The position numbers and the translations under genes are program-made. Below are positions 1 through 22,256 of a stretch of 64,000 bases of DNA, one piece after another (the first letter of the stretch is position 1; the number at the start of each line of letters is the position of its first letter). The DNA comes from Symmachiella dynata (GTDB lineage: Bacteria > Planctomycetota > Planctomycetia > Planctomycetales > Planctomycetaceae), in assembly GCF_007747995.1 (NCBI RefSeq), contig NZ_CP036276.1, positions 6,686,001-6,750,000 of the forward strand, read 5' to 3'. A model generated the notes under the pieces. That model was given only the letters and a program-made list of their open reading frames with translations, searched no databases and was not told where the DNA came from.

Positions 1-709
1 TCGGCTCCTCGAACGGCCACTGGTCTCGGCTTTCAAGCCCCAAGGGCCAGAACCGGATCGAATTCGAACCTTCCGGTGGTTCAAAAGCGACACGCGGCAG
101 TTCCTTCGCAATCAGTTCTGCATGCTGGCGATATGTCTCCGTAGTCGGCTGCCTCACAGCGAGGTCCGGCAATTGAGAAATCATTTGTGCGAGCGGAGCG
201 TTCTCAGCAGATCGAGGCTCACGCGGCCAATAGGTTCCATCGATGGCGAGCATCGTGTCCCAGGAACGATCAAATGTAAGGTTTCGACTGGGGCAAAGAA
301 CTCGGTACTCGATCGGCCATTCATCGTCAGGCTTTTGTCCCACGGGCTCGAACCGTAGGACCCACAGCTTTGGGTGAAACACCCCTCCCAGCGGCGCGGC
401 GACTTCAACGACGCATTGCTCCAAATAGCCAAACAGCTGACGGGCTTTGGTCGGTGGTTGAATCTTTCCTGCTTGGCAGAACAGAGTCACATTGTCCGCA
501 TAACGCCGCAGCGATTCCAATAGAGCCGTGGGAGTTGCAGTTAGTTTGCCTTCTTTGGTCTCACAATCAAATAAGGTGAATGCCAACGGCGTGACCAGCA
601 ACGCAAGCAGATCAAGGCTGTAAGTCGTACCGACAGCACATGACAAACGGTAACCCGTTGGGGGCCTCAACAGCTCAAACAGTAGTCGGCGATCGGTTGG
701 CTCCAGCAT
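1..709 (-). CDS. Phospholipase-D-like family protein, 3' part beyond the window (DISARM-like island)
   Basis: The reading frame is open from an ATG at 709 to the left edge (about 236 residues) and continues outside. The N-terminus reads MLEPTDRRLLFELLRPPTGY, followed by a stretch with TTYSLDLLALL. I recognise this as the start of the phospholipase-D-like proteins that sit beside DUF6361 genes in defence islands; the catalytic HKD motifs would lie downstream and are not visible. It starts only 5 nt after the stop of the DUF6361-like gene, so it is the next cistron of the operon. By analogy with DrmC of DISARM it could be a PLD-fold nuclease, but family membership rests on the N-terminus alone. 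Confidence 0.7.
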   Translation of the reverse strand, partial: MLEPTDRRLLFELLRPPTGYRLSCAVGTTYSLDLLALLVTPLAFTLFDCETKEGKLTATPTALLESLRRYADNVTLFCQAGKIQPPTKARQLFGYLEQCVVEVAAPLGGVFHPKLWVLRFEPVGQKPDDEWPIEYRVLCPSRNLTFDRSWDTMLAIDGTYWPREPRSAENAPLAQMISQLPDLAVRQPTTETYRQHAELIAKELPRVAFEPPEGSNSIRFWPLGLESRDQWPFEEP

Positions 710-714
710 TTGCG

Positions 715-1926
715 TTAATCCTTTAGTGGCCGTACGATGTCTTCAATGATCTGTGAAGACGTTGGCCAACGATAATTCAGCTGGGTGGTTCCCGACTTGC
801 CACCCCAGTCCTGTAACATCTGGTGATTTCCAATTCGTGCGCGACCTGTTTTGATTTTGCGTTCTCGATCTTTGACCAGAAATCTGGCGTCACTGTTGTC
901 AACGATCGACGCCTCGCTTGCAGCCTCGACAACCATCTCATGCCAGCGATTGACAAACGTCTTGGTTGGCGGAGGAACCCGATGCGCTGTGTTGCTTTCA
1001 ACCAACGACCAAAAGGCATCGCGTTTGTCGGCGACCGGTGACGCCCTCATCATTGGAACGTCCTCCCACCATTCAGTCAGGCTGTCGCGGTATTGATCGC
1101 AGAGGTCAGAGAATCGAGGATGCGACTCAGCCAGCAGCAGGTTGTAGAGCAAAGCCGCACCGTGCATGACCTCTGAAAAGTGTTGGGCATGGTCCACCAG
1201 ATTGCGGATTTGCTCGGGCAATGCCTGGCACGCCTCATCCAGCCATGGCAATGGAGCTTCAGGAATGATTTCGTGGCTGACGTAGTGAGCCAACAAACTG
1301 CCAGCCGTCGTCTGCCTAATACGATCAGCAAGATAGTCCGCTTCCTCGATTGTCAGATCGAATGTCGTTCCGTCCGGGAATGTTTCCGGGGGTGACGGAA
1401 TATGAGGATGCCAGTTCGCCGAACCAATGCTCCCCGCGTCGTCCAATTCTTCAGCAGCAGGAGCACGGTAGAGTTTGTCGTAATAGAGATCAAGCCAGCG
1501 GTGATATTCGTCTTTTGATCTCGCGAGTTGGAGGATTCCCCACTTACGCAATCCCGCCCAATATGCGGTGCTTGGCAATCTCTGGAGTTTGCCTCGTGAA
1601 CGAGCCCCGATCACGCCTAAGTCCGCGCCGGCAGCCAATAGCTTGTCAATCAGGACCGTCTCCGCCTTGCGTGCTTCCATGGCAATGTTCGCGTAGCCGA
1701 TTTTGCGACGTTCGAGTTCGAGATAGACCCACGGGATAAAAAGAAAATACCGGGCACGCGTCTGGATCGTACTTGTACCGGGAAATAGCAGGTCCGCCAA
1801 TGAATCACGGACCGTGCCAATTCCCAGTTCGTCTCGCGTATCCTCATCGGAATACTGGTCAATCACCTCCATCGCCTGGCGACGTTCGCCTTCGGAGAAA
1901 TCGAGCCATGTGAAAGTTGAAGCCAT
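715..1926 (-). CDS. DUF6361-like protein of defence island
   Basis: A protein of 403 residues with no recognisable catalytic motif. Its N-terminus (FTWLDFSEGERRQAMEVID, then a DELGIGTVRDSLADLLFPG stretch and TIQTRARYFLFIPWVY) matches my memory of the DUF6361 family. That family is of unknown function and occurs next to phospholipase-D-like genes and helicases. The gene lies 31 nt after the FRG gene and 5 nt before the PLD-like gene, on the same strand. It is probably a structural or substrate-binding partner of the PLD-like protein; this is inferred only from the tight linkage. The ATG at 1926 is the natural start, but no strong Shine-Dalgarno is seen. Confidence 0.7.
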   Translation of the reverse strand: MASTFTWLDFSEGERRQAMEVIDQYSDEDTRDELGIGTVRDSLADLLFPGTSTIQTRARYFLFIPWVYLELERRKIGYANIAMEARKAETVLIDKLLAAGADLGVIGARSRGKLQRLPSTAYWAGLRKWGILQLARSKDEYHRWLDLYYDKLYRAPAAEELDDAGSIGSANWHPHIPSPPETFPDGTTFDLTIEEADYLADRIRQTTAGSLLAHYVSHEIIPEAPLPWLDEACQALPEQIRNLVDHAQHFSEVMHGAALLYNLLLAESHPRFSDLCDQYRDSLTEWWEDVPMMRASPVADKRDAFWSLVESNTAHRVPPPTKTFVNRWHEMVVEAASEASIVDNSDARFLVKDRERKIKTGRARIGNHQMLQDWGGKSGTTQLNYRWPTSSQIIEDIVRPLKD

Positions 1927-1957
1927 GGAAAGTACACTTGTTGCTCTGAATGTTTGT

Positions 1958-2875
1958 TTACTCTTGCCACATTGAATTCAACGTGTCCCTGATATTGTCA
2001 AAGGTCGGCATCAGGTGCGATTTTGACACTCCTTCAGCAAACAATAGCCGGCGCAAATCTTTTGCCTCACACGAAGGTAACACTAGCTTCTTCAGCGTGT
2101 CTGGGGTGCAGATGTCTTCGAGTTTCGGCCAATCGCCGTGCAAAACGAAGTCGCCATCTGCCGATCTGTGATACGTGAAAAGTCCGGCCTGCGAATGTAG
2201 GAAGCCGATCTGGCTTCTTGGTACTCGGTATTCCGTCCATTCCGATTCGAATAGGGCTAGCCCGTTCAAAGCCCAGACTGCAACTGCGCCAGCGGGATCG
2301 TTCGGGTTTTCCGCTGCAAAGTAGGCTGCGTTAACTGGGTTCTGCGTCCAATCAAGAAGACGTGTGGCCATGCCGTGGTGCTGCGCCAATGCGTACGCTG
2401 GATGCGGCGATGAGCAGTGAGAGTCGTTGGAAACCACTTCGCGGGAGATCTTGTGCGAAATAAATCCACCCGGAACGTGCAGTCCGAGTTCATCGGCCAA
2501 AGAGGTGAATGCTTGCACTTGCAAGAACTCGAATCGCCGCTGCGCAACCTGTTGGCGAATCTGTTTTCGATCTAATTCTGAACTGCCAAGTAGTCCTGTG
2601 TTCACCTTGATCACATCGTCAATGATCTCGTCGGTGATCGTTTCAAGGACTGCCTGAAAGTGATTGTCTTTCCAAATGCTAGGACGCCAGGCCGATGGTG
2701 TGAGTCCCCAGGTCGAGTCACCTTGACCACGAAAAACCCACGGTGTAAGTGACGCGTTGTCACTCAGCCAACGCGGATTTGATCGTCGAAGTGCATCGAG
2801 GAATTCGCGAGCAGTGTTGAAGGTGATCGTTTCGTATTGCTGGTTGAAAGCCATCTTTCCTGCACTACTTTCCAC
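1958..2875 (-). CDS. FRG-domain protein
   Basis: A protein of 305 residues with a clear FRG domain: the namesake motif WVFRGQGDSTWGLTPSAWR lies near residues 45-65, and the second conserved block, QHHGMATRLLDWTQNPVNAA, near residues 167-186. FRG domains occur in bacterial and phage proteins, often in defence contexts; their biochemical activity is not settled. The start is a GTG at 2875. It is preceded at 7 nt by GGAG and overlaps the end of the upstream DUF2971-like gene by 11 nt, so the two are translationally coupled. An ATG seven codons later (2854) is possible but has poorer spacing. Confidence 0.85.
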   Translation of the reverse strand: MESSAGKMAFNQQYETITFNTAREFLDALRRSNPRWLSDNASLTPWVFRGQGDSTWGLTPSAWRPSIWKDNHFQAVLETITDEIIDDVIKVNTGLLGSSELDRKQIRQQVAQRRFEFLQVQAFTSLADELGLHVPGGFISHKISREVVSNDSHCSSPHPAYALAQHHGMATRLLDWTQNPVNAAYFAAENPNDPAGAVAVWALNGLALFESEWTEYRVPRSQIGFLHSQAGLFTYHRSADGDFVLHGDWPKLEDICTPDTLKKLVLPSCEAKDLRRLLFAEGVSKSHLMPTFDNIRDTLNSMWQE

Positions 2876-3821
2876 TGTGACACTCCTTTACCGCGACATT
2901 GGTCAGTCCATTTTGTTTCAGAAGCGTCTGCACTTCACCCACGTATGTCGTTTCAGCGTTTGGTTTGACCGCAACCTCTTGAATCAAGTCAGTGAGTTTG
3001 ATCGGTAAATGAAACCCCCTCTCGTCCGCCGCCCGAAGTTGTTTGTATTCCGACCGACTTTTGGAAAGTACCAGTTCGCGATGATTCTGTTTCTCAAGGT
3101 CCGTGAGACTGGGGATTGGCTCCGATGGCCGAAGCGGCTTTGAAATCCGCAAAGGTAATCGGAGAATAATTGGCGACTTGGCCACCATGCGAACTTCGTC
3201 TTCGTAACTCCACCCCTCCTCAACAATCGCAAGAATGCTGCGAAAGTCATCGTACTCAAGGAAGTAACTCGAATAGTCAATGTAACCGACCGCACAAACG
3301 GAAGGTTGTGCGTGGCGAACTGGTGTATTGTGAGCCCAGCCGAGCGCGCGCTCAAGCTGCCCAACCGTCGTCTTGAAGGCGATACCATTTTTCGAAGTTG
3401 CGTAATCCCACATGCTCGAAGATATTGTTGCGTTTCTGTGCCAACAGGAAACCCCGCAAAGTTGGGCCATCAGCACGTTGCAGTCTCGAACAGTCTGCGT
3501 AGAAGCTGCCAGGAACCGTTGCTTTCTCCTTGCCGCCTCTTGATCAGTGAGCCCTCGCGACATCGCCATGTGGTCACAGTACTCTTCCGGGCTCTCATTG
3601 ATGTCGGGAAGAGTTCCTTCATTGTCATCTTCAAACGTCCACGGATAACTGAACCACAGCTGTCCGACATCATTGAAGTATTTGATGTTCTTTCCCTTAT
3701 TATCATCATCTGTCCAAAGACTATGCTCCGAATACTTGCGGAGCATGTCCTCAAACTTCCAGTCATCTATATAGCGCCATATCGATGTGTTGGCATCAGG
3801 TGGGTGGGGATCACTTGTCAT
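2865..3821 (-). CDS. DUF2971-like protein
   Basis: About 318 residues. The order of features fits DUF2971: an N-terminal segment with WRYIDDWKFEDML, a central SMWDYATSKNGIAFKTT, then VGYIDYSSY and YEDEVRMV. The family is soluble, common in phage-defence neighbourhoods and of unproven biochemistry. The gene overlaps the FRG gene by 11 nt. I chose the ATG at 3821; a TTG two codons earlier (3827) is in frame. An AGGAGG lies 13 nt before the TTG and further from the ATG, so neither start has ideal spacing. About 90 nt separate it from the ATPase gene upstream. Confidence 0.65.
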   Translation of the reverse strand: MTSDPHPPDANTSIWRYIDDWKFEDMLRKYSEHSLWTDDDNKGKNIKYFNDVGQLWFSYPWTFEDDNEGTLPDINESPEEYCDHMAMSRGLTDQEAARRKQRFLAASTQTVRDCNVLMAQLCGVSCWHRNATISSSMWDYATSKNGIAFKTTVGQLERALGWAHNTPVRHAQPSVCAVGYIDYSSYFLEYDDFRSILAIVEEGWSYEDEVRMVAKSPIILRLPLRISKPLRPSEPIPSLTDLEKQNHRELVLSKSRSEYKQLRAADERGFHLPIKLTDLIQEVAVKPNAETTYVGEVQTLLKQNGLTNVAVKECHSGK

Positions 3822-3912
3822 TGTCAAATTTGCGTTTTCGCCTCCTGTTTACTATTGGGACTCGCATTGACAACACGGGGATGCTTACGCGACCGGAAAA
3901 CAATGACATTGT

Positions 3913-5397
3913 TCATTGGTCTATCTCGCCATCAAACAGGAGCTTTTGAATTTCTTCACTCCCGAGGGATTGTTTGATCTCATTCACCTTCTTCTGAAGT
4001 CGCTCGATCACCAGCGTGTCTGAATCGTCAGTGAATGCGTAAACCCCAACAGGGCCGGGCCGCCCAACTCGAAGGAACTGCCCAATTCGGGCATCGACGG
4101 TGGCTGGATTCCATGGAAGGTCGTAGAAGATGACAGCGGCAACCTCCGGGATGCGAACCGTCATTGCCGAGGTACAGACCAGCACGCCGCCATTCTGTGA
4201 AAAATCGGCAATGATCTGTTCACGTTCTCCATAGGAGCTACTGCCGGTTATGGCAGTAACATCAAAATGATTGTCGCTGAGCGCACTTTCCAGATACGTT
4301 GCCGTATTCACGTAGCTTGTGAACACACAAATTCGCATGTCTCCGCTGGAAGAAACACCAATCGTATGCAGGAGTTCGAGCAACGATTCAAGTTTGGAAT
4401 CCGTCTCGACCTCCTCAAGCATAGCGAGCAATCTGGGTACGTCGTCCATGAAAGATGATTGCGCCAGCGACTGACCATCCAAGTTCTCATCTGCGGATTC
4501 CGGTTCGATTTCGACATCGTCTGATTTTGACGCGACATCTCGAAGGCCATGAACTGTCTCGTTCCTAACTCGTTGCATTTGACTCAAACGCTGTTCAAGT
4601 GCTAGCAAGCTTGAAGATGCTGTTTGCAGCAATGCGGTTGCCTCTAACTGTGATCTCGGCTCTTTCACACCTGCTCGACGAATACACGCCTGCAATTCCA
4701 ACAGAATCTGTTGTTCGTCATCTCGCCGGACATGATGTATCCACTTGATTTGAACGTCGGGAAGCAATGGGTTCCCATCGTTGTCCCTGACGGTGTCACG
4801 TGACCAGACCGTTACCTTCGCGTCGTGAAAAAGCGGATTCGCGACACCTTCGCCGTCTGGGATCTTCGAAAGCGCATGAAGAAGCAGCGACCGGGCTTGT
4901 GGGCTGCTCTCGAATAGCCGCTGTACAAGCTCGTATCGTTGTGTCTTTGGCCTGAGATGATGCGCTTCGTCAACAACAATCAGGTCCCAGATCGTTTTCG
5001 ATAACAATTCTGCGACGTCAGCCTGTCGAGCGAAGTCGATTGACATCACCACTACACCGGTGTTCATCCAAAGGTCATCATCCTCGCCAGCGACCATCTC
5101 GCGTAGGCGGCGGCGATCGACAAAACGACATGGTACTTCGGGCGAATTACGCTGAAGCATGTCACACCATTGTTGGGCAATCCCCATCGGTGCCAGGACC
5201 AATACTCGTTTCGCCTGGCTGTGATAGAACGCGTATGCAACAATCTGGCTTCCAATAAAGCCTTTTCCCAGACCTGGTAGGCTGGTGAGTAGATGTTTCT
5301 GCTTGGAATCCGCAGCCAGAAAGTCGGCAGCGAATTCGGCTTGATGAGGGAAGCAGCCGAGTTCCAGGAAGGCGGTTGTAATCTCACTTTTATTCAT
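3913..5397 (-). CDS. SF2-type helicase/ATPase with degenerate motifs
   Basis: About 494 residues with two RecA-like halves. Motif I reads SLPGLGKGFIG (lysine kept, the usual Ser/Thr after it replaced by Gly). Motif II is VVDEAHHL. The region expected to hold motif III (SAT/TAT) reads SLLLHALSK. In the C-terminal half VLVCTSAMTVRIPEV fits motif V, and ARIGQFLRVGRPG fits motif VI (usual QRxGRxxR). It looks like a SNF2/DEAH-type protein with weakened ATPase chemistry, perhaps a regulatory or sensing ATPase. The start is an ATG at 5397 that overlaps the CBS-HEPN stop as ATGA, with GGAGGGG just upstream. A longer frame from 5451 exists but lacks these signals. Confidence 0.75.
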   Translation of the reverse strand: MNKSEITTAFLELGCFPHQAEFAADFLAADSKQKHLLTSLPGLGKGFIGSQIVAYAFYHSQAKRVLVLAPMGIAQQWCDMLQRNSPEVPCRFVDRRRLREMVAGEDDDLWMNTGVVVMSIDFARQADVAELLSKTIWDLIVVDEAHHLRPKTQRYELVQRLFESSPQARSLLLHALSKIPDGEGVANPLFHDAKVTVWSRDTVRDNDGNPLLPDVQIKWIHHVRRDDEQQILLELQACIRRAGVKEPRSQLEATALLQTASSSLLALEQRLSQMQRVRNETVHGLRDVASKSDDVEIEPESADENLDGQSLAQSSFMDDVPRLLAMLEEVETDSKLESLLELLHTIGVSSSGDMRICVFTSYVNTATYLESALSDNHFDVTAITGSSSYGEREQIIADFSQNGGVLVCTSAMTVRIPEVAAVIFYDLPWNPATVDARIGQFLRVGRPGPVGVYAFTDDSDTLVIERLQKKVNEIKQSLGSEEIQKLLFDGEIDQ

Positions 5398-6254
5398 TGT
5401 TGCCCCTCCCGCTGTCTCGCTTCGGCGGTTCGTGCCTTTCTCAGCATCCAATCTCGGTTCGAGGCGAGTGACTGATATTCGTCCACGGTTATCTCACGCC
5501 TGAAGTGGAAGATTACATTGCGGATGTCGCGTAGTTGTTCGAGTTTGGCTCTCGTGCGTGGACGACTACCGCCAAAGAATGGTGCAAAGTGCGGCCACCT
5601 TCGTCCATCGCCAACGATCTGGATGTAGTCGTTGAATGACATTTTGTGGAGTTCGGTTGGCATGCTCTCGGCATCGTACTTGTCCTTGAGACACTCATGA
5701 GCACACGCAGCGAGCGTCTCTGGATTAACGGCGATAGTCATCAGCGCCCTGAGAGCCAATTCAACTTCACCGATCAGGACAAAGGGGCTGGCGACGCGGT
5801 ACAGATACCGAAGGATGTCCATCGAAGTGACTATACCGAGAAGCCGGTCGGGCGATCCGACAAGAATCGAATTGTTCCGGTCAATCACATCGAACCACTC
5901 GGCAAACTCGTCGGTCACTCGTGCGAACGACGGCTTTGAGTCCATGCAATCTTCAACGGTGAGTTCCAAGGCGTCGAACTTACGATTTTTGGTCGCCGCA
6001 AGACTCTGGGTGATGACTGCCTGTGCAAAAGTCTGGTGGGAAAACAGCCCCAGCACCTCGCGTCCCACGACGACGGGAACCTGTGAAAACCTATGCTTGC
6101 CGAGCAGATCAAGGGCGTCTGCAACGGGCATTTCTGGTTCGACTGTCAACAGTGATTGGTCATCAGGTATTACGCTGTTCACACGGTGGAACAACTCCGT
6201 CAAGGATGGCGGGTCTGGCTCGCGTGGCTGAGATGTGTTTTCTGTTGGTTGCAT
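5394..6254 (-). CDS. CBS-pair protein with C-terminal HEPN domain
   Basis: A protein of 286 residues. Residues 25-155 form two CBS motifs (first: VADALDLLGKHRFSQVPVVV with GLFSHQTF; second: GIVTSMDILRYLY after a SILVGSP segment). CBS pairs usually bind adenine nucleotides. The C-terminal part is helical and carries RDIRNVIFHFRRE, which holds the Rx4H signature (RNVIFH) of HEPN RNases and toxins. The gene overlaps the following ATPase gene by 4 bp (ATGA). A nucleotide-sensing switch on an HEPN effector, paired with an ATPase, is the reading I favour, but RNase activity is inferred from one motif. Confidence 0.75.
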   Translation of the reverse strand: MQPTENTSQPREPDPPSLTELFHRVNSVIPDDQSLLTVEPEMPVADALDLLGKHRFSQVPVVVGREVLGLFSHQTFAQAVITQSLAATKNRKFDALELTVEDCMDSKPSFARVTDEFAEWFDVIDRNNSILVGSPDRLLGIVTSMDILRYLYRVASPFVLIGEVELALRALMTIAVNPETLAACAHECLKDKYDAESMPTELHKMSFNDYIQIVGDGRRWPHFAPFFGGSRPRTRAKLEQLRDIRNVIFHFRREITVDEYQSLASNRDWMLRKARTAEARQREGQQ

Positions 6255-6269
6255 AGGAAAGGTCTCGAC

Positions 6270-6614
6270 TTATTCCTCACCGTCTTTCCGGGTGATTGAA
6301 CATGTTTGCGATGACAGGTACTGGCGTTGCAGTAACGGAATTCCTGTTTCTCGCCACCATTCAGAGCAGATCTGGCCGCTGGACATTCCGCCGGCGTCGT
6401 ATCGTTCGACGAAGATGGGCTGGTCGCCTCGCAGCATGCTGCCAGTCAGGTCTTTGATCTTCAATTCCACTTGAGCAATGAACTTCTCAGCCGTTTCTGG
6501 AAGCTCGGCTGCTGAGAAGTGGTCGCGGAGTTCCTTCCAGAGGAACGGATCGCCACGCAGGCCCCATTGCCTTGGTTCCGTGAAGACTGACTGGATGCGG
6601 TTGGGCGCACTCAT
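6270..6614 (-). CDS. Small conserved-looking protein of defence operon, function unknown
   Basis: A soluble protein of 114 residues, mixed charge, no membrane segment. The N-terminus has FTEPRQWGLRGDPFLWKELRDHF and the C-terminus an RDTG-poor, Trp-containing SEWWRETGIPLLQ. Its start overlaps the methylase stop by 4 bp (ATGA at 6611-6614), so the two are translationally coupled. That suggests a partner of the methylase, for example a specificity or regulatory subunit. I do not recognise a family. The coding potential is supported by the overlap and by the 16-nt gap to the next cistron. Confidence 0.7.
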   Translation of the reverse strand: MSAPNRIQSVFTEPRQWGLRGDPFLWKELRDHFSAAELPETAEKFIAQVELKIKDLTGSMLRGDQPIFVERYDAGGMSSGQICSEWWRETGIPLLQRQYLSSQTCSITRKDGEE

Positions 6615-9600
6615 GACTCCACCTCCGCTTCACGTGGTGGATGGATGTGGGAGGTGTTGAGTTCGGGGGTCCATTGGGCGAAGGGGATGAAGTTGCCTTC
6701 GGCGTCGGTTGGTGGGCCGGGTGGTGGATTGAGGATGGTTTGGTAGGGTTGGCCGGTGCGGATGGCTTTGGCCATTTGATCGTAGATTTCGAGGATGGTG
6801 CGTTTGGTGCGGTATTCGCCGTCGTATTTGGCTTCGTCCTTGCGGCGAACGATGGGGAAGGTGTCCATAATGTAGTCGACGGCGTCGCGCGGCGAGGGGA
6901 ACATCTCGCGGAGCGTCGGATTGTCGGCTCCCCATTCTTCGTCGGAGCCGAGATAGAGATGGAAGTAGGCCGCATCCAGCTCGCACCGAATCTGAAACCG
7001 CCGCTCCTCATCCCAGCGAAACGGCGGTCCGTCATAGCCACAGTCTGTCGCGAATTGTTCTAGGTCCCAAGCTGTAAAGCTAAGTTCAAGGACCGCAGTC
7101 CCAATCCACTCTTGCAGCAACTCGCCGCTGCTCCACGGACAAATCTGTCCAAACAAGCTCTTCTTCACAAGTGGAAGCTGGGCAAAAATAAAGTGGCTCA
7201 AATTGATGCCGCCCATTTTTTCACGCAGCACAAAATCCAATCCGAACACGTTCAGATTTGCGACCAGGGATGCACAAACTTTTGTAGGATGATTTGCGTA
7301 GATTTGAAACAGGCTATGGCCCGCTCCGGCCCGTGGTGTTACGACAACTATGCACGTCCTCTCATTGGTCGGGCTCGTAACAGCGCAAAAGTGCATAAGC
7401 CAACAGCGGTCCCATCTGGCTTCCACCTTGCGATCAACAGACTCGGCATTGACCCAGTATTGGGGTGTTACCGAATACAGCGGGTCAGTGAGACGATTTG
7501 ATGGCGTTACGTCACTCGATGCTTGTCGCCCCTCGTTCGATGTGTTCACAATTACACTGGCTGCCCGGTGGTTGAATTGTTGGACCATCTTACCTTCGTA
7601 AAGGACAACAGGTTTGGCCAAATCGTTTGCGTCGCGGAATAACTCATCTGCCTCGTGAGACATCTGGAACATGCTGGTGGTCTCAATCATCCAGCAGTCA
7701 TCGGAGTTGTTGTCGACGTTGACAGGATGCCTCTTATGCATCTCGTTGACGAGCTGCGCCGATGAGTTAGTTCGAAAAACGGGGCATGTGCGACTCAGTG
7801 GGTTTACACGTTCGATATCCTCCGCAGACAATGGAAAAACACGGGTGTGATCGGAGAGCTCAGACGTTGCATGGAGAAAGAATCCGAATTGAGCGGCCAC
7901 TCGACTTCCACGTTGCCGTCCTGTAGTAACTAGTGAAAATCGCATGCTTGCATGGACGGTTGGGAAAAATACTTTCCTGTTCTCAAAATCAAATAGCGAC
8001 ACAAGTCGGCGAGATGACATTAGGAATTCAAAGAATTGACTTGTGCCCTTGTTTGTTGCAAGGCCACTCGGCACTACATTCCCGGAACGTCCATTCTTTG
8101 CTATCAATTTTGTTGCAAGTTCCACGAATAGGTTCGCGGTGCTGAGATTACCTTGAGCTGTGAGCGGGAGTAATTGCCCAATGTGCAACAAATGAGCGCT
8201 TGCGAGAATCAGGCGACGGTGGCGTTGCCATCGCTTCCAGGAGTCGGAGTCGTCTTGTTCCAGACGGGCAATTGCTTTCTGCCTTTTAGCGCGGTTTTCG
8301 ATCAAAGCAATGTCAGGGCGGACGTCTCCGAAGAACTTGCGTTCTTCAGGGCGAAGTTCATCCCATGGGGGATTTCCTAGAATCGAGTCAAATCCACTGT
8401 CCCACCCACACTCTTCATTGTCAGGGTTCGCGTCGACTGAGGGTAGGACGAATACATCGGGAAATGCCAAGTGCCAATGAAAGAATTGGTGCCGCGCGCT
8501 GACTTGCTGCACTTCTTCACGAACATGCGGTAGTACATTATGCGGGCTCCGTTCAATGTCACGAAACTTGCGTTCGGTTGGGCAAAGCCGGCCAAGGTCA
8601 CTCTCGTCTTTCTTCCAAACAAAAGTCGCGCACCATGTATCCGCCCAGAAGCGAGCGTTGAGGTAGTCGGCTCCTTTGACGAGGTCTTGGTATCGTTGCC
8701 GCTTGGCAGCAATCGAATCAAGAGAGTCGTCCTCGGCGGCGGTCAGCTTGGCAAACTCAGCGGCGGCGTTGCCGAGCTTGAACACTGGCTCAAACAAATA
8801 GCCCTGACCGGCTTTGTATTCACTGCGTTCCTTCTTATTGTCTTTCTTGAGGTCTGCGCAAACCTTCTTGTCATCGCCTTCGATTGGCTTGAACGCATCA
8901 TCGGGGATGCCGTCGGCCAACAGTCGCGGTGTGGTTCCGAGCAGGCTATTGCCACACTGGATGTGGTGATCAAGAAATGAGAGCGGCTTGCCCGGTTCGA
9001 GTGCTTCCATCCAGAGGCTGACTTTGCACAACTCGACCGCCATCGGGTTGATGTCGACGCCGTAGATGCAACGGCCGATGATGTCTCGCTTGGCATGCTG
9101 CACGTCGAGTGTGTTGGGCTGATCGTCGCCAGTGCGAAGACGGGCCAAGTGCATCGCCATTCGTTCGGCGGCGGCGATCAGAAAGTGACCACTACCGCAG
9201 GCTGGGTCGCAGACTTTCAGGTCCAGTAGCGCTGCTTCAGCTTCGGCCGGATCGGGAACGTCGATCGCTTGGCTGACGACAGGATCAAGAGCCGAGTCAA
9301 GGAGGCAGTTGATGAGCGACGTCGGTGTGTAGTAGCTGCCGGTAGTCTTCCGTTCGTTGCCGGCGGCGGTGCCGAGTGTGAAGGGGCCTTCGTCGGTGTC
9401 GATGTTGGGATGCAGTTCCAGCAGGGATTCGTAAACGCTGCCAAGTTCCTCGCTGCCCAGATTGCCGAAGTCGACCGGACGCCGGTAACTGCTGCCTCGG
9501 CCCGACGTGTCTTCGGTGTAGCAGAGATTGCGAAACGCATCGAGCAAATCCTGATTGGCGAGCAACGCATCATCCAGATCGGGCGTGGAATCGTCCGAGA

Positions 9601-10744: not shown

Positions 10745-10835
10745 GAGTTGTTTTCCAGTTGTCCGTTAAAGTGTTTCCGTACTCGTATTCCGTATGCCCC
10801 AACCCGTCTCCCTGACAGGGGAAGGGGCTTAGTAT
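10745..10835. other. 91-bp spacer in defence operon with GC hairpin
   Basis: This is one of the longer gaps inside an otherwise tightly packed operon. It holds CCCTGACAGGG (4-bp stem, 3-nt loop) flanked by further C-rich and G-rich runs, around 10797-10830, so a G+C-rich hairpin can form before the methylase start. It could tune methylase expression relative to the helicases, or be a degenerate dispersed repeat. No promoter was identified with confidence. Confidence 0.35.
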
Positions 10836-11771
10836 TTATTTGTATTCGGCGTCGAAATTATCCACTTGCCCGCCTAATTCGATGATCACGTGAGGAGCAG
10901 GTGGCGATTGGGATAGACCATCGCGTTCCCATCTTCGAGCTTCTCTCGCATTTGCACGAATCATGGACATTGCCCATGGCTGAAGCCCCGCTTCGGACAC
11001 TTCGACTCTAGGCGGCAAGATGATGTATCCGTTACGGCTATCACCAATTCCGACATAGTCCCTCTTGGCTACGCACAAGGCCGTCAATGCACAGATAACC
11101 GCAGCTCTATGTTCGTGGTCAGTGACATCGCCAGTTGTTGATTCGATAGTACGATTCGGCAACAGGCGACTGATTAGTTCCTCAAATCGGTTTTCATCAG
11201 GCATGTGGCGGCCTGGTGCATCGGGCCCTAAAAGCCACTCGTAAAAAATGTCTGATTTTGCTTTTGATGAGGGACGCCTGTCTTCATCGAGCATCACAGC
11301 GAGAAAGGTTGTGGGAAACGCCTCAACAACGGCCATCTCGTGGATGGCCGCAGCATGTTCCGATTTTCTTACACACCCTGCCGCGATTACGGATTGTGCA
11401 AACAGATTTGCATGCTCATTGAGCATAATTCCGTTTGGCGAACTTGATTGTCCTGGCTTACCGAATCCTAGATTGCTGAATCTTCGCGTCAGCAGGAGTT
11501 CGGCAAGTCGGTACTCGTCTATGCGGTCCAATCCAGGACGTAACGGACCATCTAGGGCCACGGCATGAAATTCCTGATCACCCACGAGTTCACGAAGCGT
11601 TCTCTGACGGGCCTCATAATCAGTGGGGATGTGGTGAACGTCGAAACTGATTCTATTCTCAGTCCAGCGGAGCAGACACGCTCCAGTCGTATCAATTTGT
11701 TCGGACCAACCAACGTCGATCCCTAACACTTGCCCGCTGGCTTCAGTGTCCCGTAGAGGTTGTTCATTCAT
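10836..11771 (-). CDS. DUF429 family protein (predicted RNase H-like nuclease fold)
   Basis: A protein of 311 residues. It has the DUF429 layout: an N-terminal VLGIDVGWSEQ strand with an acidic residue (about 15-25), the VALDGPLRPG block near residue 70, an EAFPTTFLAV segment, and a DHEHRAAVICALTAL helix near residue 220. The family is predicted to adopt an RNase H-like fold; its substrate is unknown. The start ATG at 11771 overlaps the SNF2 helicase stop by 4 bp, so the two are coupled. It is an unusual member for a DISARM-type locus and could supply nuclease activity. Confidence 0.75.
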   Translation of the reverse strand: MNEQPLRDTEASGQVLGIDVGWSEQIDTTGACLLRWTENRISFDVHHIPTDYEARQRTLRELVGDQEFHAVALDGPLRPGLDRIDEYRLAELLLTRRFSNLGFGKPGQSSSPNGIMLNEHANLFAQSVIAAGCVRKSEHAAAIHEMAVVEAFPTTFLAVMLDEDRRPSSKAKSDIFYEWLLGPDAPGRHMPDENRFEELISRLLPNRTIESTTGDVTDHEHRAAVICALTALCVAKRDYVGIGDSRNGYIILPPRVEVSEAGLQPWAMSMIRANAREARRWERDGLSQSPPAPHVIIELGGQVDNFDAEYK

Positions 11772-14629: not shown

Positions 14630-16716
14630 GAACTGGTTCCCGCACTGTTATCTATTTGTTTCAGAAATTCGGATGGCTTCCCAACCGACGTCACGAACAC
14701 TTCGTCGCGAGCACGTGTGATTGCGACGTACAGCAACTGCCGTTCGCGTTCGTAGGCAGCGTCGTAGTCTCCCTGATCACGGAGTTTGCCGAGTGTGTAC
14801 GAATGCGGGACGACGTTGTGATTGCAGTCAACAATAAAGACGGCTTTGAATTCCAGCCCCTTCGCACGGTGCATGGTGCCAAGATTGATGCCGCCTGTTT
14901 CGCTGAGGTCTTCGTTGTCGCTGAGATCATTGATGTCCAAGCCGGCGTCATGGAACACGCTACGCAACGGTTTCAGGTACTTGCCCGAGCGAGCGAAGAT
15001 GGCGATCTCTCTCGGAGAGATTCCCTGCGTCTGCAATGACTGAATCTGACTCAGGACGAAGGCTTCCTGTTCTGACTGATTGGCAAACTGCTTGATTGTC
15101 GGTAACGGCCCATTCAAGAGACTTTGTGATCGGCGATCCTCTGTCCCTTCGTTAAAATCGTCGGAAGCACCGGCCAGCATGCGATCGGCGAAGCGTCGAA
15201 TTTGCTCCGTGGTCCGATAGTTGATCCGCAGGATGTGTGAGCGGCCTCGAATGTCGATGCCCAGTTTCTTCAGGCTGAACCCACCGGGATAGATTCGCTG
15301 GCCAGCGTCGCCCAGCACCATCAGGTCTCCGGGATTCGTGGCTGACAAAGCGCTGAGCAGTTGCAGTTCCTGCGGCTGTAAATCCTGAACTTCGTCAACG
15401 ATGACAGCGTCGAAGGGACTCTCAACCGTTCCATCCTGAAGTGCTTCGCGGGCGACGCGGCAAATCCCCGACCATGGATAGGCATGGGCTGCGGTCAGGT
15501 CGCTCCACACGCGTTCAAAAACTTTCCAGCAATCTTTGCGTTGCTTGATCGTCAGTGGCTTGCCACGACCGGTGCGCACTGCGTCCCGATACTCATCCCA
15601 GGTAGAAATTCCCTGCGGCTCGATTACACCCGACCATTCGTGCGACAGGAATCCTGTATCGAATAGATAACCGCCGTGTCCATGGTGCCGTTTGATCAAT
15701 GCTTCGATCTTGTCAGCATCAACCGGGTGAATTTTGGGGATGGACGCTTTGGCAAGGGCGAGTGCCTGCTTATGGACCGTGCTGACCGTGATACGGCTTT
15801 CAACCGAAGCATCGAATTCCTGCTGGGCTCCAGCGCAAAGGACATGAATGTTGTGTTCAATGTTCCGGCACAGCGTTGTGACGTAGGACGTCAACAGCAC
15901 TCGCTTGCCCTCCGCTGCCAAACGACGTGCTCGGTGCATTCCTACGACGGTTTTGCCGGTGCCTGCCGCCCCGGAAACCTTCGCCGGTCCGTTGTAGTCC
16001 TTGCTGACTAGCAATCGCTGTGACGGATGGAGAAAGCGGACCCAGTCTTCGATAGGACGATCAAGGATACTAGCCAACTCGGCAGCATCCTGTACGACCC
16101 AAAACCGTCGCAAGTTATCAGGGTTCTGTTCGACCGGCGTTGTTGGAGAAACTGGCTTTGGCGGTGTGACCAGTTCGCCAGTGGATAGCGTCAGCAGGCT
16201 TTCCGCCACTTCTTCGGGTAGTTTTTGGCAAACCGTCAGCAGTTGATCGTCGTTTTGAATCTGCCGGGTGATTGTGAGCCAGTCTTCCGGGACGCCCAGA
16301 CTCAACAGGTACTCGTCGTCGTAGTCGGCGAATATTTTTGGAGCTTCGTAGTACGGCTGAGAGGCTTTGATCGCTTCTTGCACGCCCTCCGTGGTCTCGA
16401 CAATTTGTAGCGTCCCGGTCACCGGGTGATTTTCAATTCGGCGATGCTCCGCCCAACGGTAAGCATCCTCGTGATGTCCCGCGTATAACAGCGTCAGCAT
16501 GCCGTCGCTTTGATGCAGGATGGTGCGCAAGTCCTGTGTGATTCGCGCCGACTTCATGCTGGAATCTTTGGCCCCCTGTATCGTCTCGAAGTTCAATCCA
16601 GGACTGCCGGGGTCTTCCATGAACTTCGTCAGGAAGTCCAATACCCGGCCACGGTCAGGCGTGCTGAGCTTTTTAGTTGATGCGGAAAAGGTCTTGGAGA
16701 TGCTGACTGCACTCAT
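14626..16716 (-). CDS. UvrD/Rep-type SF1 helicase with N-terminal RelE/ParE-like domain
   Basis: A protein of 696 residues. Residues 1-95 resemble a RelE/ParE toxin fold: SARITQDLRTILHQSDG followed by LTLLYAGHHEDAYRWAEHRR, as in plasmid addiction toxins. The SF1A helicase follows: Walker A GAAGTGKTVVG near 252, Walker B AVIVDEVQDLQPQE near 440, and the C-terminal LLYVAITRARDEVFV near 665. It would move 3'-5' on single-stranded DNA. A RelE-like domain fused to UvrD is known in other bacterial helicases; whether it cuts mRNA or just binds is not known. It overlaps both flanking helicase genes by 4 bp. Confidence 0.88.
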   Translation of the reverse strand: MSAVSISKTFSASTKKLSTPDRGRVLDFLTKFMEDPGSPGLNFETIQGAKDSSMKSARITQDLRTILHQSDGMLTLLYAGHHEDAYRWAEHRRIENHPVTGTLQIVETTEGVQEAIKASQPYYEAPKIFADYDDEYLLSLGVPEDWLTITRQIQNDDQLLTVCQKLPEEVAESLLTLSTGELVTPPKPVSPTTPVEQNPDNLRRFWVVQDAAELASILDRPIEDWVRFLHPSQRLLVSKDYNGPAKVSGAAGTGKTVVGMHRARRLAAEGKRVLLTSYVTTLCRNIEHNIHVLCAGAQQEFDASVESRITVSTVHKQALALAKASIPKIHPVDADKIEALIKRHHGHGGYLFDTGFLSHEWSGVIEPQGISTWDEYRDAVRTGRGKPLTIKQRKDCWKVFERVWSDLTAAHAYPWSGICRVAREALQDGTVESPFDAVIVDEVQDLQPQELQLLSALSATNPGDLMVLGDAGQRIYPGGFSLKKLGIDIRGRSHILRINYRTTEQIRRFADRMLAGASDDFNEGTEDRRSQSLLNGPLPTIKQFANQSEQEAFVLSQIQSLQTQGISPREIAIFARSGKYLKPLRSVFHDAGLDINDLSDNEDLSETGGINLGTMHRAKGLEFKAVFIVDCNHNVVPHSYTLGKLRDQGDYDAAYERERQLLYVAITRARDEVFVTSVGKPSEFLKQIDNSAGTSS

Positions 16717-19700
16717 CGCGCATCCCCCAATGCCGCGAGGATTGCTTCAGCGGCCTCAGCATCAGCGGGATCGACCGCAACCGCCTTGTGGCCCTGTGAT
16801 TGAATGGCTTCGAGTATTTTTGGGACGCCATCTTCGCCAGCATTGACGACCCAGAGATGTCCGTCATCTTTGGCGATGTCTATAACGTAGGAGCCAAGGA
16901 CGCGGCCATTCGATGCCACGTCGCCACCAGGTTCAATCAGCAAACTGTCGTCACCGGCAAGCTGTTCAATAACAGAATGCCAGGGCGTCGGAAACAGATC
17001 GAGATCAAGTTCCTCCTCTTCTTCGACTGTCGGAACGGTGATCGAACTGACAACCTCGCGTGCGATGCCAAAGATATTGGGGTGGAGTGCAATAATCTCG
17101 TCCCACTCGGCTTCGTGATGGAATCTCAGCACCGTGATGCCAAAGTCATCCATTGCGGCGGTCTTTTCCTGATCGCGTTGTTGACGATCAGCGAAATCAT
17201 GCGGCGGACCGTCGATGTAAATCGCCGTGTGTTGCTTCCCGTACACGAAGTCTGGTCGGGTGCCACATTCCTCATAAAACTTCTGAGCGGTTGTCGGAAG
17301 CCTGAGGTGTCGTGCAGCCAGATAGTCGAGCCAGGACTTTTCCAGTTGGCTGTCACATTGCGACTTGAGCGATGCAAGGTGGGCTGCAAAAGACTTGATT
17401 CCGGGAGAGGCTTTGACCTGGGCGTGTTTGAGATCAAGCAGCGTATCGCGAATACGCTGGCGATCGAGTAACTCGTGATCGCGCTGATTCGAGTAGCTCA
17501 TCAAGCAGTCGTAACAGGCAGCTTCACAGTCTTCGGTTGCACCGATCGCTCGACGAAGATCATTGCCAGTAGCCGGGTCAAAGTGGCAAAGGCGAAGGGC
17601 TTCTTCGGCAATCAATGAAAGTGAATTCTCGTCTTCGAGGATGCGACGCAGGACGCCCGCACCGCCTTCCGCCGATTCAAAAAACAGAATCTGTCGACGA
17701 TCGTCCACTGATGGCAGCGGTTCCGCAGCGAGTTCGTTGTCTTCAAGCTGGTAAATCGTCTGAATGGCTTTTTTCAGTGCGGCCTGCAACGCCGCCATCT
17801 CGCCCGCGTCCAGCCCGCCGGAGGGATCAAAGATCAGGCAGTTTCGGCGATCTTCCACAAACGGCACAACCCGCTGTGTGCGAGCCCCCAGTGGATCGCC
17901 GGGGTCTTCTTCGTCGGGCAACTGGTCGGAACGCTGCCAATAACCTTTCTCAATGTCGAGCACAAACCCATGCTGGTCTCGATTTGCTCGCCTGCGCCAG
18001 CCAAGGTTAATTCGCCAAATCGTCGCAGCGTCACCATATGTCAAGCTGCAATCGAATGAAGTTATGCCAGTGACCTCGGCCACTCGATACTGCGGTAACC
18101 CACCGACTTCCTTAAATCTCAGGCCGGTTCGCAGCTCATACCCCATTCGCAATCGTTCTTCTTCATCCGAACTGATTCTGTCACGTCGTTTGGTCGCGAC
18201 ATTCTGCAAGCGCAACAGTGATCCGATTCGGGAAAGTCGGGCACTGTCACAGTTCTCGCACCGGTCCGGTCCGGCTTCACCCCACTTCAGTTCGTGCATG
18301 TAGCCGCAGTCCGCACACTGCTTGGCCGCACCCGTGAGCGGAGCGTCGCCTTCAGCAATGGGCAGAATCACCTTGTTGACGATGTAGCGGGAACCTTCGT
18401 GGTAGATGATGCCTCGCGGTCCGAACTCCGAAATGGCAAGGAATCGCGGGCGTGAAAGGAATTCGTCCTGACCTTTCATGCGTCGCCGAGCAGGTATGTA
18501 CGCTGAAAGCGGCAGACGAGGGAAGTTGTAGCCCGGAAGGAAGCCTTCGCTTGCGAAGTACCGGTAACTGTAGAAGTCCGACTGGATGACATTCCTGGCA
18601 TCTGTCAGCAATTCGATCTGCGCTTCTGCCTCGCGTCGCAGTCGGCGTGCCTCGTCCCATTGTGCTCGTAAAGCGACATCGCCGATGACCGCGTTCTGTC
18701 GCTCAAACTGATCCTTCGCTGCAAGAAACAGGCTCCGCCATCGTTGGCAGGCGTCTTCAAACGCGTGCAACGTGTGATCCAGCGTTTGTTTCAACCACTC
18801 ATCAGTGAACCACGAAGCGGATTCGAGTTCTGCCGAGATCGTTTGAAGAATGGATTCAGCTTTTGCTCGTGCCCCGGCGATGGAGGACGATTTCGACAAC
18901 CCAGCCTTTTTACTGGGCAGCATTGTTAGCGTCGGATTGACGCCTTCGACATCCAATAGATCGGTGAGTGAGTTGCCCAGCCACTCACCGGTTTCGGCGA
19001 GCCAGATGGCGTGAATATGGGCTCGAACAAGGTCTTCGTTGGCTAGATCGAGTCGCGGTGGGCTGACCGCGCCAGCGACCATGCGCTCCGGCTGCCGGAA
19101 GAAATACTGGTCGTGTGAACTTCCAGTTGTACAATACGTCAGCACGAATGCTGGTTGCCCGCTGCGTCCGGCGCGACCGCTCCGTTGAGCGTAATTTGCC
19201 GGCGTGGGCGGTACGTTTCGCATGTTGACGACGTTCAGCTGCCGAATGTCAACACCCAGTTCCATCGTTGGCGAACAGTAAAGAACAGGCAGCTTTGCCG
19301 AACCGAAATCCTGTTCACGTCGTTCTCGCTCCTGATACGGGACCTGAGCGGTATGTTCGCGAGCTTCCAGACCTCGAAGCTCACCTGCCACTGTCCGATA
19401 GAAATTCACGAAGAAGTCGTTGGTGCGTCCGCCTTCCTGTGGTGGATTTGGAACACGAATCGGATCGTGGAATGCAATGGTTCCATCTGCCATCTGCCAC
19501 TGCATGGCTGATGCCGACAGTTGATAGCCGGGTTGATCATCCTCATCGCCTGATGGCTCGACAACGCGCACAACGTAGCCGGCGTTAGCCAGTACGGTGA
19601 ACAAGTTCTGGATAATTGTGTCCTTGTCGACAAGACGCAAGTTGCCGGCAGAACGATCAAACTCCGGGAGTGTTGTCGGGCGACCAAGATAGATTCCGAA

Positions 19701-22256
19701 TCCACTGCGTCCCGACAGGTAGGTGTAGAACTGTCGGTCATGGGGACGTCGACCCCGGGGAAATACGGCGGACGCTATTTCAGCGCGTTCCTGCTCGTCG
19801 ATGGCCCAGGGCTCGCGAAGTCGCTGAGAACTCTGCTGTTGCAGTCGTTCAAAGAACTCGGTTGTCAGATAATCAACGTCGATCGCCAGTTCCCGACGCA
19901 AGTAATCCAACAGCGCTCGGGAAATCCGTTCGCGAGTCGCCGGTAACGCGCCGGTCAGTGCGGCATGGGTTCCTTGCCAGTGTTCCTCCGACTGACAAAG
20001 CTCAATAAGCGATGGATACTCAATTTTCAGTAGGCCACACTGCTCAAGGTTTGGTGATGTAATACGCCAACCACGTTTTTGGTCGCGGTAGAGTCGATAG
20101 CCCAGGACATTGCGGAAGGCGCGCTCGGTGTCGGCTCGTTGAGCGAATTGAACGCCGGGTTCGCGTGCAAATAATTCCAACGGCAGGTCGAGAGCTTTGT
20201 AGACTCGCTGGGTAAGTTCATCATGGGCAATGCCGTCACTCCCGGCAGCCGCCACAGCTTTATACAAAGCAGAACGCAACAAGCTGACTTCTACAAAATC
20301 ATTGAAATGACCGGCCTGAAGCGAGGCGTCCTGTCGGTTGTCAGTGAAGCTGAGCAGCTTTCGAGCGAAGTCCTGTAGTGTTGGTTCCTCTCGTAGGAAA
20401 CGAACACTGGTCAGGCTGAGAATTGTCGTGGCGGTGCTGCGACCTCCGCTCGCGAGAGTGGCGAGTTGACCGTAATCGGATGATCCGCGTCGAACACGAT
20501 ACGACACGCCGCAGTGCTGACAGAACCGGAACGGGGTATTTGTGAAGGCGTACATCAGCCCGTCTGCTGACACCGTTCCATCAGGGGCGATCAATATCGG
20601 TTGTGGTACGTCGTCGCGCCGATTACTGCGAACGCGCATCCTTCCACGATGTTCTTCCAGCCAATCTTCGGGAAGCCGTGCCACAAATTCGTCTGGATCA
20701 TTGGGCCACAGGTTTTCGGGATCACGATAAAGGAAACCTGCTTCTCCTTCCGCAGGGTCGTCGACGCGATCATTCAAGTCGCGCGTCCGAAAATGGACTC
20801 GACCGGTTGAACTTTCCGTATACTTCCAGACCGAGTAATACTCAGCGCCACACTCGCGGCAGAATGCCAATGGCAAGAGTATCTTTGACTTCTGACTGCC
20901 GGGCACAAACTGCTGTCCGCTGATCGACAAATGACGCGTGTCGTTCTCTTCCAGAGATGCAAAGACGGCGTCACCGCGACTGATGAATTGATGCAAGCGG
21001 AAAGCGAACGGCTGGCGATTGGTTTCGGGGTGGGGCTCGCTGTTGCAACCGGCAAGCAACCATCGCTCGATCGCATCTTCACAATCATCAGCCGACATTC
21101 CGACAAGAGCGGAAAGCTGTGTCGCTGCTCCATTGTCACCACGCATTCGTTTCGGTGTTGCTCGAATGAGCCGGTTGGTTCCTTCTTCTCGCGTCAAGCC
21201 AAAGCAGTCTTCGAGCCAGCACGCCATCGGTGATTCGATAAAGCTGGCATATGCGGATGGGAAACCATTCGTTTTGGCGATGTCGCTTTTTAGGCCCTGC
21301 AAAACGCTGGCGTCAGCAAAATTCAACTCTGGGGATTCACGCTTGAGGGTTTCGCCAATGATTGATTTCGGTTTAACGTCCGTGCCGAACAGGCGAGAGG
21401 CGACCGACGCAATTTCTTTTCGCTGTTCCTCGTAGCTACCTCCGCTCGCCATCGTGGCCGAAGTCCCAACACAGAGCATCTGTGTTGCATGACAGGCTTC
21501 ACGCACGCGACGCACCAGCAATGCGACATCCGCTCCTTGCCGACCACGATAAGTGTGCAACTCGTCGAGCACCAGAAAACTCAAGTCGCGGGCTGAGTTG
21601 ACCAGTGCCTGCTCGAACGGACGCGTCAGCAGGAGTTCCAGCATCACATAGTTGGTTAGCAGGATGTCCGGCGGGTTGCGAGTGATTTCCTCTCGTTTCT
21701 CTCGCGTCTCCTGCCCCGTGTAGCGTTCAAACCGCACTGGCTCCTTCCCTTCGCCGAATCCAATGCGAAGGAACTTTTCAAGTTCGCCATACTGACTGTT
21801 GCAGAGCGCGTTCATGGGGTAGACGACAATGGCCTGAATTCCTTTGCCTCGCCCTTTACGCAGAACGTGATCCACGATCGGGATAATGTACGACAGGCTC
21901 TTTCCCGAACCGGTCCCAGTGGTCAGCACATAGTTTCTGCCAGCCTGTGCCTCACCAATTGCGTCGACCTGATGCTTATGCAGACGCATCGGCGAGCCGT
22001 GGACGTTCTGCTCCGTCTTGATTCGAAAAATGTCCTTGCATTTCTGGTGGAGAACTTGGTTTTCAACCAAGGCATCAATCCAGCCCCCCACTTCGAAACT
22101 GGGGTTCATCTGAATCAGCGGCTGTGGCCACAACGCCTGATCGGTCAGACTTTCATCAACAAACTGCTGCAATCGACTTTCACGAATCCGTACAAAGCTA
22201 CGGACGTACTCGGCGTAGTCGTGAATAACTTTGTCGCGTAATTTGAAGACGTCCAT
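16713..22256 (-). CDS. Giant DEAD-like helicase with DUF1998/MZB and C-terminal nuclease-like domain (DrmA/DrmB-like)
   Basis: A protein of 1847 residues and first gene of the operon. Walker [13 protein letters not shown] is near residue 115; motif II is DELHTYRG (DELH for DEAH) near 232, as in the MrfA/YprA/Hrq1 group. Zinc-ribbon-like pairs CRECG and CQHCG follow in the middle, with CADCGY/CENCD further on. The four-Cys DUF1998/MZB signature [15 protein letters not shown] is near 1579. After it come [19 protein letters not shown] and [10 protein letters not shown] (about 1640-1685), then GITVLRFHH: the layout of a DUF559/Vsr-like endonuclease. Helicase plus DUF1998 are separate proteins (DrmA, DrmB) in DISARM; here they appear fused. 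Confidence 0.88.

Follow-up and report, generated by a model that had tools for sequence, protein, structure and literature searches.

An ARMADA operon of the Type I lineage with an ArmD gene and a tailed ArmC in a composite defence island of Symmachiella dynata

We analyzed a stretch of 64,000 nucleotides from Symmachiella dynata (the window; the genome is a single contig of 7.77 Mb, of which these are bases 6686001-6750000), in which positions 1-22256 hold a long run of minus-strand genes. On the evidence of its sequence, the core of this run (6611-22256) is an ARMADA operon of the Type I lineage, made up of ArmC, ArmA and ArmB with two added genes, and what is new here is the presence of ArmD within a Type I operon together with a C-terminal tail on ArmC. 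The genes from 16713-22256 to 6611-10744 very probably form one anti-phage operon of that lineage, in which an ArmD module would be held on ArmC by the tail. The region as a whole is a composite defence island of several separate systems, with the ARMADA variant as its main operon. The original prediction, made from the letters of the sequence, had described an extended DISARM-like operon of twelve same-strand genes. All of the genes are on the minus strand, but only eleven lie within 1-22256, ten of them complete and the eleventh, ZacB, truncated at the edge of the window; the twelfth, ZacC, is located beyond that edge (L002:11465-14785). The five core genes are as follows.

16713..22256, minus strand: ArmC-like YprA helicase-DUF1998/MZB-Vsr protein, 1847 aa (Pfam DEAD, Helicase_C, MZB)
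14626..16716, minus strand: ArmD-like protein with a RelE/ParE-type N-terminal domain and a UvrD helicase, 696 aa (Pfam UvrD; Escherichia coli ArmD match)
11768..14629, minus strand: ArmA-like BrxHII/RapA SNF2 helicase, 953 aa (Nocardioides and E. coli ArmA matches)
10836..11771, minus strand: DUF429-like protein between ArmA and ArmB, 311 aa (PADLOC PDC-S44, 1.9e-13)
6611..10744, minus strand: ArmB-like PglX/Eco57I adenine methylase, 1377 aa (Pfam Eco57I, 4.7e-21)

Assignment of the core genes to ARMADA Type I

In the 2025 preprint of Bell et al. (PMC12458937; this and the other papers are cited from excerpts of their text), two branches of YprA-based systems are named ARMADA Type I and Type II. 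The usual Type I order there is ArmC-ArmA-ArmB, and Type II runs ArmA-ArmB-ArmC with ArmD, a RelE-UvrD fusion and the extra gene of Type II, next almost always. The window holds a YprA homologue, a BrxHII-like gene and a PglX-like gene in a single operon, the combination by which ARMADA is recognized, and these follow the Type I order with two extra genes interposed; the Type II order ArmA-ArmB-ArmC-ArmD was not found in the window on comparison with E. coli ATCC 8739 (L045). Set against Type I as excerpted, the window agrees in gene order and has all three proteins homologous over their full length, and adds ArmD between ArmC and ArmA, the ArmC tail and the DUF429-like gene between ArmA and ArmB. 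With the E. coli Type II system it shares ArmD right after ArmC and the tail at the ArmC end, but differs in gene order, in a distant ArmC and in an ArmD that falls outside the Type II branch. The distinction between Types I and II has rested on the tree, on gene order and on ArmD, the last two of which are mixed in the window locus. The first four genes of the operon are joined through three 4-bp overlaps, in agreement with the several overlaps that had been predicted, and a 91-bp gap precedes ArmB. Pfam likewise recovered the predicted fusion of helicase and DUF1998/MZB in a single 1847-residue protein, as well as the UvrD, SNF2, Eco57I/N6 methylase, CBS, FRG and DUF6361 assignments made across the run.

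The window ArmC gave full-length matches at the 44.5-46% identity level to Type I-like plasmid proteins of Deinococcus, Nocardioides, Rhodococcus and Roseomonas, each of which sits beside matching SNF2 and methylase genes, whereas its alignment with the ArmC of the E. coli Type II system was patchy (22-35%). ArmA is 49% identical to the protein in the ArmA position of Nocardioides, against 27% over 550 columns for E. coli ArmA; the corresponding values for ArmB are 39% and 23% over 956 columns. A quick ArmC tree of 38 rows, which is not the published tree and has one DruE row on a long branch as outgroup, placed the window ArmC among the Type I rows, separate from 7/7 Type II rows (L135 and L093 were omitted, and whole frames were used for L136, L139, L140 and L142). 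The contig search found one named relative, a Planctomycetaceae metagenome-assembled genome (L043) with an ArmC at 95%. We located DELH in ArmC, DEAH in ArmA, a Walker A motif in ArmD, DPACGSG and NPPW in ArmB and DGPPH in the Vsr part of ArmC; the Vsr part also matched DUF559 at 4.5e-5.

The original prediction had instead seen class 1 DISARM with DrmA and DrmB fused, a reading that we now find hardly credible. The part of it that stands is the recognition that the defence genes are related to DISARM and include a fused helicase-DUF1998 protein: the window and class 1 DISARM share a YprA-family helicase, an SNF2 helicase and a PglX-like methylase, and the last two families are common to DISARM. 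However, the window differs from class 1 DISARM in the fusion itself, in having no DrmC and in scores under the DISARM cut-offs. The helicase is a full-length ARMADA Type I match and hits the DruE3 model at 4.2e-101, whereas DrmA reached only 6e-14 over part of the core, and the SNF2 protein scored 321.5 bits, under the DISARM_DrmD cut-off of 610. The PLD protein that had been read as DrmC is ZacB (2e-176), and the best DrmC match, to the same protein, was 9e-5. In addition, Nocardioides pNOCA01 holds annotated DISARM genes next to an ARMADA trio, the two being distinct gene sets. We rejected a fused DISARM on these model scores and on the identity of ZacB.

The best PADLOC (2023) rows were DruE3 for the helicase, DpdE for the SNF2 protein and DrmMI for the methylase; that library is older than the ARMADA naming, and its best rows alone would mislead. 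Druantia was rejected, as the top DruE3 row reflects a shared helicase family; the Dru partner genes were not seen, and DruH was absent from the listed PADLOC matches of the other scanned genes (best rows only for four proteins). In a Nocardioides plasmid locus (L019), we also observed McrC with an adjacent AAA gene close to both an ARMADA trio and annotated DISARM genes.

ArmD and the C-terminal tail of ArmC

The window ArmD aligned over its full length with ArmD of E. coli ATCC 8739 (33% over 726 columns, E 1.3e-113). The RelE part, which the original prediction had assigned, was upheld by aligned ArmD domains, 4/13 of which match ParE_like and 4/13 HigB-like models (best E ~1e-4), and by an AlphaFold2 model in which residues 1-90 form a beta-alpha-alpha-beta N-terminal unit (predicted local distance difference test, pLDDT, 71-87 by block). 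The window domain by itself gave no Pfam match at E 1, and its sequence search against PDB yielded two matches (E 0.8-1.8), both unrelated; a profile search reached YoeB at E 0.29. A fold search with the ArmD model returned UvrD-type helicases in the first 23 of 50 rows and further helicases or their relatives in the others, and was uninformative on the RelE part.

Five Type I loci have ArmD immediately after ArmC (the window, L043, L026/G048, L088/G302 and L089/G288), and a sixth locus, L087/G247, retains an 88-residue ArmD remnant. Among 392 sampled genomes of the phylum, own genome counted, an ArmD relative occurs in 24 (E 1e-30) and an ArmC relative in 15 (E 1e-100). In the ArmD-bearing Type I loci, ArmC carries a tail of ~100 residues beyond the Vsr domain, which in the window spans approximately residues 1747-1846 (16719-17018) as placed by profile. 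The tail accompanies ArmD in ARMADA: across 46 ArmC loci (2 excluded at contig ends, L135 not included), it was found on 23/23 ArmC with a same-strand ArmD <=3.5 kb downstream (profile E <=1e-3) and on 1/21 testable ArmC without ArmD, the exception being L087 with its ArmD remnant (Fisher p 1.2e-11, without kinship correction). The scan of the 392 genomes gave four tail matches >100 bits, namely the three ArmD-bearing Type I ArmC of the sample and the remnant-bearing one, and 12 more that were all <22 bits. Separately, the Streptomyces locus L135 has a Type I ArmC without a tail and an ArmD ~18 kb further on. The tail may dock ArmD onto ArmC.

Profile comparison matched the window-type tails (A1) to the tails of Thermaceae at 76.7%, and the latter to the Type II tails (A5) at 94.6%. 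Homology of the window-type and Type II tails rests on this Thermaceae bridge, because the direct match between them fails. The Type II tails also resemble the active Vsr domain (70.8%), whereas window-type tails did not match it (0.3%), which gives no support to an origin of the window tail by duplication of the adjacent Vsr domain. The ArmC of L089 and L087 lack a portion of the Vsr active-site stretch but retain the tail, so that a different part of these proteins may have taken over cutting.

The ArmD tree (29 rows; L087 and L131 had no match at its threshold) united the ArmD of the five Type I loci in one supported clade (100/99). A branch with support of 100/99 separates them, along with relatives linked to restriction-modification (R-M) genes and other relatives, from 6/7 Type II rows, and forcing the Type I-locus ArmD together with all seven Type II rows costs 79.7 log units (approximately unbiased test, p-AU 0.00013). 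The seventh Type II row, Thermaceae L136, falls on the Type I-locus side of the branch and may add to that rejection. Because Type I and Type II ArmD do not form one clade, and given the Thermaceae placement, either Type I acquired ArmD independently of the main Type II line or an ancient ArmD has been lost repeatedly.

Several results weigh against a tail that holds ArmD on ArmC. The association is uncorrected for kinship, and some of the tail rows also trained the tail profiles; the weakest of the 23 positives is L206 at 20.9 bits. The A1 and A5 tails had no direct profile match (7.5% and 1.3%), and a 2-row model of the window tail was unusable (pLDDT 40). A single gain of ArmD and tail inside Type I was not rejected (p-AU 0.057; tree of 20 of the 38 ArmC rows, tails removed where present), and an ancestor with both ArmD and tail, followed by loss, is possible. 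Many ArmD relatives are without a tailed partner: among 36 viral-contig ArmD loci, 22 have BPTD_3080-type R-M genes instead, 7 are Type II ARMADA and 7 are neither, and no tail was found on the frames of the loci with BPTD_3080-type genes. Moreover, the ZorE proteins of the Pseudomonas putida and Vibrio Zorya II loci have tails that score a weak 20-21 bits, and the 18.5 and 29 kb covered there include no annotated ArmD-like gene.

A tail on the methylase that precedes ArmD in BPTD_3080 operons was considered, and none was found. The frame preceding the ArmD relative of L069 (G448) ends in a weak tail match of 28 bits, and the L116 locus has DISARM-like matches to DrmMI, DrmA and DrmB with an ArmD relative downstream of them. 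S. dynata itself has a second ArmD relative (G000 3793615-3795666; L100, L101) with a phage terminase gene ~10 kb off.

Tails on BrxL and ZorE and the possible role of ArmD

A search of plasmids with the Thermus oshimai BrxL tail returned five records at E 0.01, all from Thermaceae, and the best tail match was within BrxL in 3 of them and within a helicase in 2. BrxL is unrelated to ArmC, and in all three plasmids with a tailed BrxL an ArmD is in the neighbourhood. The tailed Thermaceae BrxL genes are the following.

L137:9457-10992
L138:8277-9905
L143:18291-19895

In T. oshimai, BrxL is directly followed by ArmD, and two small genes separate the pair in Meiothermus taiwanensis. In Thermus thermophilus SNM3-3, BrxL, ArmA, ArmB, ArmC and ArmD are on one strand, interspersed with an NYN gene and two genes of opposite orientation; the tail is found on BrxL and also on ArmC. 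The ArmC of L136 and L139 belong to the Type I side of the tree and come with ArmD and the tail. Thermaceae plasmid ARMADA (L136, L139, L144) shares with the window a Type I-side ArmC, ArmD next to it and the tail, but its gene order is ArmA-ArmB-ArmC-ArmD, and its ArmC, like the ArmD of L136, branch deeply and separately.

The Type II tail profile also matched residues 279-359 of ZorE from E. coli ATCC 8739 (L045:42278-43381) at 4.1e-9, and in the reverse direction the PADLOC ZorE model matched the end of E. coli ArmC at 4e-10. PMC13192584, as excerpted, calls the ZorE extension nuclease-like, and by position this should be the tail-type domain. The tail links the C-termini of ArmC, BrxL and ZorE, which are unconnected in the excerpts of PMC12458937 and PMC13192584.

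Alternatively to an ArmD adaptor, the tail could be a degenerate domain, DNA-binding or nuclease-like, carried along by large defence enzymes, with shared operon ancestry behind its link to ArmD. This is a serious possibility, which we hold somewhat short of probable. The resemblance of Type II tails to the active Vsr domain, the nuclease-like wording for ZorE and the tailed ZorE with no ArmD annotated nearby are consistent with it. It does not fit as well with window-type tails that fail to match Vsr, with a tail that is also on BrxL near ArmD, or with Type I and Type II ArmD that are not one clade. A bolder suggestion, which we regard as rather improbable, is that the tail acts as a portable adaptor recruiting UvrD-type (superfamily 1A, SF1A) helicases: ArmD to ArmC, ArmD to BrxL and a RecBCD-like host machine to ZorE. 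If true, it would explain the tail that tracks ArmD, the ZorE tail without ArmD and the ZorE synergy that the excerpted PMC13192584 reports to be RecBCD-dependent, and defence systems would swap partners by swapping one small docking domain.

Returning to the ARMADA operon with a tail-held ArmD, we infer the following activities for S. dynata. ArmA and ArmC would be ATP-driven helicases that engage invading DNA, the Vsr-type nuclease of ArmC would cut it, and the ArmB methylase would aid the distinction of self from non-self. ArmD, which joins a putative RelE-type RNase domain to a UvrD helicase, would be held on ArmC by the tail and act on what ArmC exposes. Phage DNA would then be attacked directly by ArmC-ArmA with the Vsr nuclease. 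According to the excerpts of PMC12458937, in which activity is shown for Type II only, the E. coli Type II system is active against phage and requires all four genes, including the Walker motifs of ArmA and ArmC, the Walker A motif of ArmD and NPPW of ArmB, and infected cells remain intact and active. The tail provides a sequence-level entry to the question of how ARMADA may acquire a portable RNase-helicase, and docking can be tested specifically in E. coli, a host in which Type II is functional.

The DUF429-like gene and neighbouring modules

The predicted DUF429 assignment gained support from the PADLOC PDC-S44 match and from four Roseomonas plasmid records at 39-43%, of which the 39% relative is annotated DUF429; Pfam gave no meaningful match for this protein. 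DUF429 has an RNase-H-like fold. We rejected it as a conserved gene of the slot between ArmA and ArmB, as the only match at E 1e-8 in a set of 119 genomes of relatives was in the own genome. The slot holds an HNH gene in G048 and, in G002, a 225-aa gene without a Pfam match whose likeness to the DUF429-like gene is by eye only. The DUF429-like protein may have a role in the operon. A 356-bp gap follows ArmB, and the remaining genes of the run are listed below.

5394..6254, minus strand: CBS-HEPN protein, DS-11-like, of a separate cassette (NF053863 DS11_antiphage, 101.6 bits, cut-off 260)
3913..5451, minus strand: small SNF2-type protein, 512 aa, partner of the CBS-HEPN protein, with a degenerate Walker A (Pfam Helicase_C, ResIII)
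2865..3827, minus strand: 320-aa protein without family assignment (PADLOC PDC-S31, 1.2e-4)
1958..2875, minus strand: FRG-domain protein (Pfam FRG, 8.6e-17; PADLOC PDC-S15, 1.4e-31)
715..1926, minus strand: ZacA (DUF6361) of ZacABC (PADLOC ZacA, 2.3e-129)
1..709, minus strand: start of ZacB (PLD-like), continuing beyond the window (PADLOC ZacB, 2e-176 for the whole gene in L002)

ZacA, ZacB and ZacC are adjacent and matched their PADLOC models as whole genes in L002 (2.3e-129, 2e-176 and, for ZacC, 1115.6 bits); the PLD match of the cut ZacB gene was 25.2 bits, just below the Pfam cut-off of 27. The DUF6361, PLD-like and helicase genes stand in the order of ZacABC in PADLOC-DB 2.0.0, and we saw no difference from that system. 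Our literature searches found no paper that describes ZacABC, nor do the excerpts of PMC8565338 and PMC9252829 describe it. Among the 119 genomes, ZacC occurs in 10 and lies within ~20 kb of ARMADA in 3 (own, G002 and G048); it is far from ARMADA in G009, and six ZacC genomes have no ARMADA match. Phage-like genes (a terminase large subunit and a ParB-like/methylase protein) are found beside ZacC at L002:3999-11371.

The CBS-HEPN protein contains RNVIFH, which we take to fit the HEPN motif Rx4-6H, in line with the HEPN domain predicted for it. Its 512-aa SNF2 partner has GLGKG in place of the usual Walker A form GxGK[ST] and keeps DEAH, which bears out the degenerate ATPase that had been proposed; this protein had no plasmid match at E 1e-20. 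DS-11 consists of one CBS-HEPN protein, reported as anti-phage in the excerpts of PMC13092281, and has the CBS and HEPN-type domains in common with it, but the window protein falls under the NF053863 cut-off and is paired with the small SNF2 protein. Relatives of the CBS-HEPN protein occur in 4/119 genomes, beside ARMADA in the own genome and G009, where the relative follows ArmB with a 4-bp overlap, and elsewhere in G004 and G104. G004 (87% complete) has the same CBS-HEPN/SNF2 pair, and no ARMADA match was found there. For the gene at 2865-3827 the predicted DUF2971 did not hold, since Pfam returned nothing above noise and the PADLOC row is PDC-S31 at 1.2e-4.

The original prediction had further proposed that the whole run of 11-12 genes could be one distinct, undescribed system in which all proteins act jointly. 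The common strand, the overlaps inside parts of the run, the recurrence of ARMADA with ZacABC downstream in G002 and G048, and the CBS-HEPN relative overlapping ArmB in G009 are in its favour. We nevertheless consider it very unlikely and rejected it, as relatives of its parts are unlinked: ZacC is without a nearby ARMADA in 7/10 ZacC genomes and near it in 3/10, the CBS-HEPN relatives are beside it in 2/4, the CBS-HEPN/SNF2 pair of G004 is in a genome (87% complete) that gave no ARMADA match, and a 356-bp gap separates the pair from ArmB. The occurrence of the Zac and CBS-HEPN genes without ARMADA in relatives argues for an ARMADA variant plus independent neighbours, and largely refutes the single system by the standard that the original prediction had set for itself. 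Downstream of ARMADA, the CBS-HEPN/SNF2 pair, FRG gene and ZacABC each count as a defence module of their own, recurrent island neighbours of ARMADA rather than proven parts of it.

A scan for promoters and terminators gave fewer sites than shuffled sequences did. Immediately upstream of ArmC there is a 57-aa open frame (22327..22500, minus strand; open frame only), a possible remnant, whose putative likeness to the N-terminus of HsdM would perhaps mark the leftover of a replaced type I R-M operon. Further upstream of the ARMADA operon, a 1239-aa protein (window 23326-27045, minus strand) has a partial PD-Lambda-4_A match at 7.6e-19. In G048, helix-turn-helix and IrrE-type peptidase genes are located directly upstream of ArmC (L026:6042-7407) and could be a regulator pair.

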